From positions 1-55,632 of the forward strand of contig JAAYPR010000046.1 in assembly GCA_012519705.1 (NCBI GenBank): a stretch of 55,632 bases of DNA, given 5' to 3'. Below the pieces are notes generated by a model. That model saw only the letters and a list, made by a program, of their open reading frames with translations, was not told the DNA's origin and did not search any database. Source of the stretch: Campylobacteraceae bacterium. GTDB lineage: Bacteria > Campylobacterota > Campylobacteria > Campylobacterales > Campylobacteraceae. Shown here in pieces: positions 43,163-47,363 of this stretch (its first letter is position 1; the number at the start of each line of letters is the position of its first letter). The translations under genes were made by a program, and so were the position numbers.

Positions 43163-44374
43163 TTAGACTAACTTTATAAAACTATATCCGCTATCTGTAA
43201 GCATTTGGCAAACTTTGTCTTGATGCTCTTTGCCTTTTGTCTCTAAAGCTATGGTTATCGCTGCATCGCCGTAGTCGATTTTGGTTGAAAATCTATCGTA
43301 GTCGATCTTTACGATATTTGCATTTGCAGACTTTAATGCCGCTGTTAAGCCCATCAAAGCCCCTGGTTTATCAACCAAAGTTACAACTATTGACATCTTT
43401 CTGTGGGATTTTATAAGCCCTTTTTCGATGATGACATTAAGCATCTGAACGTCGATATTTCCACCACTTAAAATGACGCCTATTTTTGAGCCTTCTTTAT
43501 ACTTAAACTTTTCATTCATCAAAGCTGCCACGCCCACTGCCCCAGCACCCTCGACTATGATTTTTTGCTCTTCAAGTAGGAAAAGTATCGCACTTGCGAT
43601 TTCCTCATCATCAACTTGCACGAACTCATCAACGCTTTCTAAAATATGCTCCAAAGTTATCGGGCTTGCATCACGCACGGAAATTCCATCCGCTATGGTT
43701 TTAACACTTAGTGAGTTTATCGGCTTTTTAGCTTTGAAGCTATTATACATCGCCGGAGCTCCTTTTGCCCCAACGGCAATGATTTTAATGTTTGGATTTA
43801 TCTGTTTAGCACAGCTTGCAACTCCGCTTACAAGCCCACCACCACCAACCGGAACGATGATATAGTCAAGGTCACTCACCTCATCAAGCATCTCAAGAGC
43901 GATTGTCCCCTGTCCTGCTTGAACATAAGGGTTGTCAAATGGATGAACAAAAGTAAGTCCGTTTTCCTTAGCATACTCTAAAGCGTAAGCGTAAGCTTCA
44001 TCGAAGTTATCGCCTTTTAGGATAACTTCTGCTCCTAAATCTTTCGTCCCGCTCACTTTTAAAAGAGGTGTTGCTTCTGGCATCACTATAACTGCTTTTA
44101 TACCAAACTCACGTGCACTTATGGCAACGCCTTGAGCGTGGTTTCCAGCACTTGCGGCGATGACTCCACACTTTTTCTCAGCTTCGCTTAAATTTGCTAT
44201 CATGTTGTAAGCACCGCGGATTTTATACGCTCCTGTGCGTTGTAAGTTCTCTTCTTTTAGGTATATTTTTGCGTTAAATTTTTGATTTAGCTTAGTAGAC
44301 TCTGCAAATGGAGTGTTTTCTGCAAAGCCTGAGATGGTTCTTTTAGCTTGGATTATTTTGTTTAAATCAACCAT
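43163..44374 (-). CDS. ilvA: Threonine ammonia-lyase (catabolic/biosynthetic type with ACT domain)
   Basis: This PLP enzyme (403 aa) deaminates threonine to 2-oxobutanoate, feeding isoleucine synthesis. The PLP lysine lies in TGAYKIRGAYN near residue 50. The serine/asparagine loop is AASAGNHAQGVA near 90, and the glycine loop VPVGGGGLVSG lies near 180. A C-terminal ACT-like domain (about 325-403) suggests allosteric control. This 403-residue form with a single ACT domain is common in Campylobacter. It is divergent from the DUF134 operon, whose operator lies 107 bases upstream of its start. Confidence 0.93.
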   Translation of the reverse strand: MVDLNKIIQAKRTISGFAENTPFAESTKLNQKFNAKIYLKEENLQRTGAYKIRGAYNMIANLSEAEKKCGVIAASAGNHAQGVAISAREFGIKAVIVMPEATPLLKVSGTKDLGAEVILKGDNFDEAYAYALEYAKENGLTFVHPFDNPYVQAGQGTIALEMLDEVSDLDYIIVPVGGGGLVSGVASCAKQINPNIKIIAVGAKGAPAMYNSFKAKKPINSLSVKTIADGISVRDASPITLEHILESVDEFVQVDDEEIASAILFLLEEQKIIVEGAGAVGVAALMNEKFKYKEGSKIGVILSGGNIDVQMLNVIIEKGLIKSHRKMSIVVTLVDKPGALMGLTAALKSANANIVKIDYDRFSTKIDYGDAAITIALETKGKEHQDKVCQMLTDSGYSFIKLV

Positions 44375-44479
44375 AAATTTCCTTTGAAAAACTATTTTTC
44401 CTATTTTATCATTTTATTTTATATTTATCTTAAAATTGTGATAAATTTACTGTTTTTAAGGATAAATTTGAAGTAGTTA

Positions 44480-44508
44480 TTGACATATGCCATTAAAAAA
44501 GCTACAAT
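44480..44508 (+). promoter_or_regulatory. Consensus sigma-70 promoter of the DUF134-NifX operon
   Basis: TTGACA (44480-44485) and TACAAT (44503-44508) are separated by exactly 17 bases. The -35 is perfect and the -10 differs from TATAAT at one position. A strict -35 is unusual in epsilonproteobacteria. It predicts a start point near 44515. Confidence 0.75.
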
Positions 44509-44528
44509 TTCATTTGTGGCATATGTCA
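44481..44528. promoter_or_regulatory. Inverted-repeat operator flanking the promoter
   Basis: TGACATATGCCA (44481-44492) and TGGCATATGTCA (44517-44528) are perfect 12-bp inverted copies with 24 bases between them. The first covers the -35 and the second covers the expected transcription start, so a bound dimer would block RNA polymerase. Each arm contains the palindrome CATATG. The DUF134 protein encoded just downstream is the natural candidate ligand. Confidence 0.7.
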
Positions 44529-44557
44529 GTAACTATAAGAAATTTAAAGGGAAAGTT

Positions 44558-45262
44558 GTGGCAAGACCAATAAAATGGAGAAATGTCTGCTCCTTACCTA
44601 AAAGCAGTAAATTTGGACCACTCGACTGCAAACGTGAAGATGAAATCATAATGAGCGTTGATGAGTATGAGGCCATCAGGCTTATAGATTTAGAAGGCTT
44701 CAACCAAGAAGAGTGTGCAAAACAGATGAACATCGCTAGAAGCACGGTTCAAGGAATTTATATCTCCGCTAGAAAAAAGTTAGCCGAGTCTTTAGTAAAT
44801 GGCAAAACGCTTTTCATAAAAGGCGGGGAGTATAAACTTTGCGACGGTTTGGGCGGTGGATGTGGCAAAGGATGTCGTAAGAAAAAATTCAAACAAGAAA
44901 GGATGAAGATGAAAATAGCCATTCCAGTGGATGAAAAAAACATAGATGCAAAAGTGGCAAGCTCTTTTGGTAGAGCAACTTACTTTTTGATTTATGATGT
45001 GACAAGCAAAAGTGAGAGTTTTGTAGAAAATGAAGCTCTACAAAGCAAGGGTGGAGCTGGGATTAAAGCAGCTCAAACTATAGTAGATAGCGGGGCAGGC
45101 ATTTTACTAACTCCAAGACTTGGTGAAAATGCTGCTGATGTGGTGCAAGGTGCTGAGATAAAAATCTATAAAACAACTGATGGTTCGGCAAAAGAAAACA
45201 TCAACGCTTTTATAGATGGTAAACTTGATATCCTAGATGAGTTTCACGAGGGAAAACACTAA
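44558..45262 (+). CDS. DUF134 DNA-binding domain fused to a NifX-like (dinitrogenase cofactor family) domain
   Basis: This protein of about 234 aa has two parts. The N-terminal DUF134 domain (about 1-105) starts MARPIKWR and has a helix-turn-helix like sigma region 4 ([21 protein letters not shown], read in parts). It ends in a Cys-rich tail ([16 protein letters not shown]). The C-terminal NifX/ORP-type domain (about 118-230) starts MKIAIPVDE and contains [13 protein letters not shown]. The GTG at 44558 fits AAAGG seven bases upstream and the family start. A further upstream ATG would add 26 residues and lies over the operator. An internal ATG at 44909 has its own AAAGG six bases upstream, so the NifX part may also be made alone. 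Confidence 0.85.
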
Positions 45263-46108
45263 GTGAAAACTGATAACCTAAAAATAGCAGTCCTTAGCGG
45301 AAAAGGCGGAGCTGGGAAAACCCTGGTCTCTGTAAATTTAGCCGCGGTAGCTAAAAACTCTACATATATCGACTGTGACGTGGAAGAGCCAAATGGATAT
45401 CTTTTCTTTAAGCCTGAAAATGTGGTCAAGAAAGACGTCACGGTTAAAATCCCAGTAGTTGATGATGAACTTTGCAATGGATGCAGAAAATGTGTAAAAT
45501 TTTGCCGTTACAACGCTCTTGCTTATATCAAAAACAAAGTTGTTGTGTATGATCAAATTTGCCACTCATGCGGAGGATGCATGCTAGTCTGCCCACATGG
45601 TGCGATAAGTGAAAAAGATAGAACTATCGGCAAAATAGAAAGTGGAACATCAAAAGATACTCAAATTTACACCGGAGTTTTAAATATCGGCGAGGTTTCA
45701 GGAGTGCCTATCATAAAAGAGATGGTTGAGAGTAAATTTGATGGCTTAACCATCATAGACTCACCACCAGGAAGTGCTTGTATAGTGATGGAGAGCATCA
45801 AAGACGCCAATTACTGTATCTTGGTAGCTGAGCCAACTATCTTTGGGGTGCATAACTTAGAGATGATACATGAACTTGTTAAGGTTTTTGGTAAGAAATT
45901 TGGAGTTATCATAAATAAAAGCTTAGATAGCGATGAGCTAGTTGAGAGTTTTTGCAAAGAAAATGGCGTTAAAATTCTAGGCAAAATTCCTTTTGACAAA
46001 GAGCTTGGAGAGTTAAATTCAGATGCTAAAATCGCAGTTAGAGAAAGCGTTAAATACAAAGAGCTTTTTTTAAATTTGCTTGACAAAGTTTTAAAGGAGG
46101 CGTCGTGA
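45263..46108 (+). CDS. MinD/ParA-type ATPase with inserted 2x[4Fe-4S] ferredoxin domain, copy 1
   Basis: This 281-aa protein of the MinD/Mrp superfamily has the deviant Walker A LSGKGGAGKTLVS at residues 10-22. A ferredoxin insert follows (about 65-115) with two clusters (CNGCRKCVKFC and CHSCGGCMLVC). The Walker B/switch region IIDSPPGSACIV lies near 160. Such proteins sit next to NifX/ORP genes in anaerobes, where they are thought to help assemble or transfer metal clusters. The GTG start lies directly after the DUF134-NifX stop. Its stop overlaps the next gene (GTGA). Confidence 0.88.
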   Translation: MKTDNLKIAVLSGKGGAGKTLVSVNLAAVAKNSTYIDCDVEEPNGYLFFKPENVVKKDVTVKIPVVDDELCNGCRKCVKFCRYNALAYIKNKVVVYDQICHSCGGCMLVCPHGAISEKDRTIGKIESGTSKDTQIYTGVLNIGEVSGVPIIKEMVESKFDGLTIIDSPPGSACIVMESIKDANYCILVAEPTIFGVHNLEMIHELVKVFGKKFGVIINKSLDSDELVESFCKENGVKILGKIPFDKELGELNSDAKIAVRESVKYKELFLNLLDKVLKEAS

Positions 46109-46980
46109 AACAGCTACTTATTTTAAGCGGAAAAGGCGGAACTGGAAAAACCACTGTCGCAAGTGCCTTTATAAAGTTATCAAACGCTAAGGCTTACGCT
46201 GACTGCGATATCGATGCCCCAAATTTGCACCTTATAAGTGGCGATGAGCTTGGAAAGCCTGCAAAGTCAGAGTTTTACGGACTAGATAAAGCTTATATCG
46301 ACCAAGAGAAGTGTATAGAGTGTGATAAATGCTTTAAATACTGCCGTTTTGATGCGATCTTGAAAGATGATGGCTACAGCGTAGATGCTTATGCATGTGA
46401 GGGGTGCGGGGTTTGTGAGTATGTCTGCCCAATGGGTGCTATTTCTATGAAGCCGTATGTTGATGGAGACTTGATGCTTTATAGTGGCGGTGGCAAGGCG
46501 TTTTCTACTGCTAAGCTTAAGATGGGAAGCGGAACTTCTGGGCTTTTGGTTAGCGAGGTTAAAAAAGAGCTAAAAGTTAATGCCCCAAGTGACGCTGATA
46601 TCGCTATAATTGACGGCTCACCTGGGATTGGATGTCCGGTAATCGCCTCGATAAGTGGGGTAGATATGGTTTTAATCGTCGCAGAACCGTCAATCTCAGG
46701 CATTAGCGATATGGAGCGAATCGTTAAAACCGCAAAAAGATTTGGAGTAAAAATAGCAGTTTGTATAAATAAATTTGATACAAATCTTAAGAACACAGAA
46801 AAAATAAAAGAGTTTTGCAAAGAAAACGAGTTAAGTTTAACTGGGGAAATTCCTTTTGATAAAGAGGCTGTAAAGATGGTAAATTTAGGTAAATCTATCG
46901 TTGATACAGAAACTTTATCAGGAAATGCAGTTAAAAAAGTATATGAAAAAACACTGAATTTATTAAATAAAGGAGAATAG
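46105..46980 (+). CDS. MinD/ParA-type ATPase with inserted 2x[4Fe-4S] ferredoxin domain, copy 2
   Basis: This 291-aa paralogue of the preceding protein has Walker A LSGKGGTGKTTVA near residues 7-17 and ferredoxin clusters CIECDKCFKYC and CEGCGVCEYVC (about 70-115). The switch region AIIDGSPGIGCPV lies near 170. The two ATPases probably form a heterodimer, as in ORP complexes of Desulfovibrio (recalled from the family, not proven here). The GTG at 46105 overlaps the stop of copy 1 by four bases. The next gene starts two bases after its stop. Confidence 0.88.
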   Translation: MKQLLILSGKGGTGKTTVASAFIKLSNAKAYADCDIDAPNLHLISGDELGKPAKSEFYGLDKAYIDQEKCIECDKCFKYCRFDAILKDDGYSVDAYACEGCGVCEYVCPMGAISMKPYVDGDLMLYSGGGKAFSTAKLKMGSGTSGLLVSEVKKELKVNAPSDADIAIIDGSPGIGCPVIASISGVDMVLIVAEPSISGISDMERIVKTAKRFGVKIAVCINKFDTNLKNTEKIKEFCKENELSLTGEIPFDKEAVKMVNLGKSIVDTETLSGNAVKKVYEKTLNLLNKGE

Positions 46981-46982
46981 AG

Positions 46983-47336
46983 ATGAAAAAAGTTGCAGTT
47001 GCAAGTAATGACGGCGTGGTAGCAGGACATTTTGGTCACTGTAAGGAGTTTATAGTTTTTGAAACAAAAGATGGCAAGATAATTGGAAATGAAACCGTTC
47101 CAAGTCCTGGACATAAACCTGGACTTCTACCAAATTTCTTAGGCGACAAAGGCGTGAATGTCATCATAAGTGGCGGAATGGGTCAAGGTGCGGTTAATAT
47201 ATTTAATGAGAGAAATATAGAAGTTATCGTTGGAGCTTCGGGCGACGCTAAAGAAGCAGTTGAAAACTATCTTAACGGCTCTTTAAAGTCAACTGGTTCG
47301 ATTTGCGAAGAGCATGAGCGTGGATGTAATCACTAA
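46983..47336 (+). CDS. NifX/ORP-like (dinitrogenase iron-molybdenum cofactor family) protein
   Basis: This 117-aa one-domain protein of the NifX/NifB-C/ORP fold begins MKKVAVASNDG. Its central part is GHFGHCKEFIVFE, GHKPGLLPNFLGDKGVN and ISGGMGQGAVNIFNE. Residues able to bind a cluster include His and Cys in GHFGHC and a C-terminal CEEHERGCNH. In Desulfovibrio the homologous orange protein carries a Mo-Cu cluster; whether this one binds metal is unknown. It is the last gene of the operon and is followed by a strong terminator. Confidence 0.85.
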   Translation: MKKVAVASNDGVVAGHFGHCKEFIVFETKDGKIIGNETVPSPGHKPGLLPNFLGDKGVNVIISGGMGQGAVNIFNERNIEVIVGASGDAKEAVENYLNGSLKSTGSICEEHERGCNH

Positions 47337-47340
47337 ATTT

Positions 47341-47363
47341 AAAGGGGCTTTTGCCCCTTTTTT
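47341..47363 (+). terminator. Intrinsic terminator of the NifX operon
   Basis: AAAGGGGC / GCCCCTTT is a perfect 8-bp stem with a TTTT loop, followed by more T. It lies five bases after the stop of the last operon gene and abuts the stop of the convergent gene. Confidence 0.85.

Follow-up and report, generated by a model that had tools for sequence, protein, structure and literature searches.

Two palindromic sites over the promoter of a DUF134-NifX operon in a Campylobacteraceae bacterium: a candidate operator pair of the DUF134 protein

The inverted repeat that lies ahead of the DUF134 gene at 44558 is best explained as a pair of operators of that gene's product, which would bind both sites and repress its own operon (probability about 0.8, judged from sequence comparison). 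The repeat belongs to a contig of 55,632 nucleotides, analysed as a whole and hereafter called the window; all promoter and gene features described below are on its forward strand. An autoregulatory operator had been proposed for this place in the initial annotation. The proposal stands insofar as the paired site occurs at most orthologous promoters and only in DUF134-bearing genomes, and it is refined here to two separate palindromes, which we infer to be bound by the DUF134 protein.

The sequences TGACATATGCCA (44481–44492) and TGGCATATGTCA (44517–44528) are exact inverse copies, which agrees with the perfect 12-bp inverted repeat claimed at 44480–44528, but the extent of the repeat had been understated. 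Extension with TAGTTA/TAACTA gives 19-bp arms with one mismatch (TAGTTAYTGACATATGCCA, 18 of the 19 arm bases pair). Each 12-mer is a near-palindrome in its own right (TGRCATATGYCA; 10 of 12 positions are palindromic), and the two copies are 36 bp apart, centre to centre. Since each 12-mer is itself near-palindromic, two operators describe the locus better than one inverted repeat, and the repeated unit is a palindrome of about 22 bp used twice. Candidate operator site 1 (extended palindrome 44476–44497, core TGACATATGCCA) overlaps the −35 element, and candidate operator site 2 (extended palindrome 44512–44533, core TGGCATATGTCA) lies over the predicted start. Perfect 12-bp inverted repeats were observed four times in the window, against a mean of 0.76 and a maximum of 4 in 25 Markov-1 simulations; the 18/19 repeat is rarer (one observed; mean 0.08, maximum 2 in 25 simulations). 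A bare 12-bp repeat is thus unremarkable in this AT-rich window, and the repeat owes its significance to where it lies and to its conservation rather than to its length. Exact matches to TGRCATATGYCA are found at these two places only in the 1.72-Mb genome.

The promoter (44480–44508) is composed of TTGACA (44480–44485), a 17-bp spacer and TACAAT (44503–44508). It is the top promoter-like match of the region (11/12), and the same layout is seen in relatives. Transcription is expected to start near 44515, and the second arm (44517–44528) falls where +1 is predicted. Both the consensus promoter under the repeat and the placement of the second arm at the expected start point had been noted before and hold.

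The same arrangement recurs at orthologous promoters. Pairs of sites 32–43 bp apart, neither site having more than one mismatch, are carried by 59 distinct promoters, the window's included. These 59 pairs, one per locus in 775 kb of loci, are all situated upstream of DUF134, directly or a few hundred bases off. TTGACA lies within site 1 in 58/59 of the paired-site promoters, and a −10 within one mismatch of TATAAT is present in 56/59. Averaging of the sites yields a longer palindrome, about GTTwATGACATATGTCATAAAC. The hosts belong, by recorded name, to Bacillota, Chloroflexota, Spirochaetota, Atribacterota and Mycoplasmatota. Within 250 bp of DUF134 the pair is found in 17/77 loci, while 359 permuted palindromes, used as a control over the same distance, gave an average of 0.04 loci; only two permutations scored above zero, both of them close to the motif itself (12 and 2 loci). 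The operator had been made to depend in part on the presence of the repeat at orthologous promoters, and the pair precedes most of the orthologues found, all of them outside the genus. Palindromic sites that lie over the regulator's own promoter and are conserved in orthologues, one mark of a promoter-overlapping autorepressor, are therefore found here. The spacing of 32–43 bp spans a full helical turn and gives no sign of a fixed cooperative geometry, and helical phasing or looping between the sites was rejected as unsupported at this range.

In two loci that were read (L131:3368–3646 and L134:3159–3473), a small Gly/Arg-rich gene stands between the pair and DUF134; its protein in L131 was identified as DUF5320. 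Because of this position between the paired operator and DUF134, the gene is probably a member of the regulon in some relatives.

A strict form of the pair pattern is present in 32/50 DUF134 genomes, nearly always once, and the reversed control occurs in one genome. Clostridia genomes (n = 291) were sampled without regard to the motif; the pair was found in 32/126 DUF134-positive and in 0/165 DUF134-negative genomes (Fisher p = 1.8e-13, kinship ignored). The strict pair is missing from 94 DUF134-positive Clostridia, many of which belong to different DUF134 subgroups, whose sites have other flanks, occur singly or cannot be recognised. Among 153 genomes of the window's family, only the window's genome has the pair. 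Three genomes carry an extra pair away from DUF134, before NifX-ATPase-ATPase genes that are usually followed by a second NifX, and a fourth carries one before a lone NifX gene; these extra pairs imply control in trans. Of the Clostridia pair matches that lie away from DUF134, four (L219, L223, L234 and L235) fall within or next to unrelated genes and seem to be chance occurrences.

Palindromes built on CATATG also precede diverged DUF134 genes. Other Campylobacterota DUF134 genes share about 29–43% identity with the window's domain, and the palindrome ACATATGT was found upstream of 31/36 of them (11 for the next palindromic octamer). Several repeat the layout, with TTGACATATGTTC followed by GAACATATGTTC 34 bp on. 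One Clostridia subgroup has GTGCATATGCAC, usually as a single site. Ahead of the only other DUF134-NifX fusion of the window's family (L007), the order TTGACATTTGTCA, TACAAT, TGACATAAGTCA is observed, i.e., the layout is kept and the core is changed.

The base flanking the core of the site varies together with the recognition helix. In the DUF134 model the second helix of the helix-turn-helix begins at residue 61. Ser or Ala at residue 62 goes with G beside CATATG (21/21; left half of site 2), Thr goes with A (33/36), and Gly is found in the GTG group. A phylogeny-aware comparison of residue 62 with the flank gave one supported pair; the gene tree is too poorly resolved for independent changes to be established, and the association therefore stays a lead.

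The gene under this promoter (44558–45262, GTG start, 234 aa) codes for a DUF134 domain with a Nitro_FeMo-Co (NifX) domain fused to it in frame. The DUF134 part (PF02001, residues 2–93) scores 77.9 bits against a gathering cut-off of 27, and helices 50–57 and 61–81 are modelled at high pLDDT where the helix-turn-helix of the family is expected. The first gene had been described as coding for a DUF134 protein with a helix-turn-helix, and this description is borne out by the score and the model. The helix-turn-helix (residues 50–81, 44705–44800) is supported by the structure model, fold matches and covariation, and includes Ser62 (codon 44741–44743). A sequence search among solved structures returned weak helix-turn-helix matches only, and none for the DUF134 domain as such. 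Fold matches of the model, with modest scores, include sigma region 4 among the top ones and the DNA-binding domain of DeoR (7bhy). The helix-turn-helix is followed by a Cys triad, C95-x6-C102-x3-C106 (44840–44875), a possible metal or cluster ligand; a triad-like pattern is present at this place in 75/77 relatives. The fused NifX domain occupies 44909–45262; most relatives encode it as a gene of its own. Within the reading frame of the fusion, AAGGA precedes ATG 44909 (44898–44911), which could let the NifX part be translated separately, as is the standalone gene of the relatives.

Downstream of the fusion gene the operon comprises two P-loop ATPases with ferredoxin inserts, ATPase 1 (45263–46108) and ATPase 2 (46105–46980), a second NifX/ORP-like protein (46983–47336) and a terminator-like hairpin at the operon end (47341–47360). 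The NifX/ORP-like proteins and the ATPases are probably cluster carriers.

According to the proposed mechanism, a DUF134 dimer would bind each palindrome of about 22 bp (approximately GTTwATGRCATATGYCAwAAC) through its sigma-region-4-like helix-turn-helix. Since site 1 lies on the −35 and site 2 on the transcription start, their occupancy would exclude RNA polymerase. The regulator and its operon, which encodes two ferredoxin-type MinD/Mrp-like ATPases and two NifX/ORP-like domains, would thereby be expressed less. The signal can be named only tentatively: at somewhat less than even odds, DUF134 is modulated by a metal-sulfur cluster, with either the NifX domain or the Cys triad as the sensor. 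The triad, the fusion to NifX and the binding of Fe-S clusters by the related MrpORP point this way.

The same sites could serve activation. A DUF134 protein that binds them but mainly activates, or acts as a cluster-dependent dual switch, is an unlikely variant, even though regulators with cluster ligands can change mode and the Cys triad and NifX fusion suggest a ligand; a promoter this close to consensus has no need of an activator, and proteins bound over the −35 and the start, the positions of these sites, normally block polymerase. Much less probable is a different, unlinked regulator that controls DUF134 operons. The binding protein cannot be named from sequence alone, which leaves some room for such a regulator, but the pair is absent from all 165 DUF134-negative Clostridia and from all 152 other genomes of the window's family, DUF134 is the common element across phyla, diverged genes included, and the flanking bases track its recognition helix.

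An RNA hairpin acting as an attenuator or stability element, or a chance repeat, is the most improbable explanation and can hardly be retained. The fold would be strong if the whole stretch were transcribed (z = −7.7), but the first arm contains the −35 and would thus be untranscribed from this promoter; furthermore, the sites are individually palindromic in relatives, and many diverged genes have a single site. As for chance, 12-bp repeats alone are not rare in the AT-rich window, but conservation excludes this origin. Repression by DUF134 from its two operators is the preferred reading.

The operon itself was probably acquired, since the gene is missing from all sampled congeners and is most closely related to genes of Firmicutes. 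The DUF134 gene was absent from the other genomes of the genus (14 genomes searched), and some DUF134 match, mostly weak, was obtained in 7/153 genomes of the family. The nearest relatives are in Firmicutes and other anaerobes, and their DUF134 parts are up to about 76% identical to the window's. The gene order DUF134, NifX, ATPase 1, ATPase 2, usually followed by NifX, is found in 35/64 relatives with enough downstream sequence. In the congener G002, ilvA and a DUF4298 gene adjoin, about 40 bp apart, where the window holds the operon. The GC content of the operon is 0.39, against 0.34–0.36 in the 5 kb on either side. The case suggests that the operon brought intact control sites with it into a Campylobacter-type genome.

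At the ilvA-DUF4298 junction of another congener (G013, L210:4244–6547), which corresponds to window positions 44374–47362, a 767-aa AAA_13 protein is encoded. It matches the PADLOC candidate defence family PDC-S06, the match to PrrC being weaker, and two copies of the DUF4298 gene flank it further out. The junction may be an insertion hotspot. The fusion of DUF134 with NifX is unusual among close relatives of the window protein; other DUF134-NifX fusions (L007:1498 onward and L089:6001 onward) carry a different NifX type with an HFGH motif, so that such fusions seem to have formed at least twice.

Many anaerobes carry DUF134 (126/291 sampled Clostridia and 73/397 sampled genomes of the window's phylum have a match), yet no assigned target was found. 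With an operator defined and a small regulon linked to Fe-S or heterometal cluster carriers, DUF134 function becomes testable, and the pairing of residue 62 with the flanking base is a candidate specificity code. Taken more widely, at somewhat short of even odds, DUF134 proteins could be widespread metal- or Fe-S-responsive autoregulators of the ORP-like cluster-carrier operons of anaerobes, with a shared CATATG operator and a code by which residue 62 determines the base beside the core.

Several known systems are close to the one proposed. Like the orp operons of Desulfovibrio vulgaris, the window operon encodes NifX/ORP-like protein with MinD-type ATPases, and ORP itself (2wfb) matches the fused NifX domain in sequence. 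The D. vulgaris operons are controlled by sigma54, the enhancer-binding protein DVU2106 and IHF (PMC3897727), whereas the window operon has a sigma70-type promoter with DUF134 sites; as judged from this near-consensus promoter, it appears to lack a sigma54 promoter with a cognate enhancer-binding protein, and its only recognised DNA-binding domain is DUF134. MrpORP is an Mrp/NBP35 ATPase fused to a NifX-type domain, and both of its domains bind Fe-S clusters (PMC6345978). The window operon shares these domain types, but as separate polypeptides and with ferredoxin inserts in the ATPases; the best score to the MrpORP model (NF041136) was 115 bits, for the second NifX protein only, against the NCBIfam cut-off of 450 bits. 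Sigma-70 region 4 and DeoR (7bhy) share the helix-turn-helix fold with the DUF134 model over about 40–60 residues (best E-value 0.09, Z < 7), a likeness of fold with no demonstrated kinship.

A described operator or binding site of DUF134 was not found in the open-access literature (searched with DUF134, COG1342, UPF0251/PF02001 and motif strings, for the latter among the best 20 of 32 papers), in agreement with the initial annotation, which knew of none. An autoregulator of the helix-turn-helix type with two operators is a familiar kind of system; what appears to be undescribed is the operator and regulon of the DUF134 family. The DUF134/UPF0251 family (PF02001), to which the window protein belongs by score, is published as predicted DNA-binding proteins of unassigned function, and a specific operator and regulon are proposed for it here.
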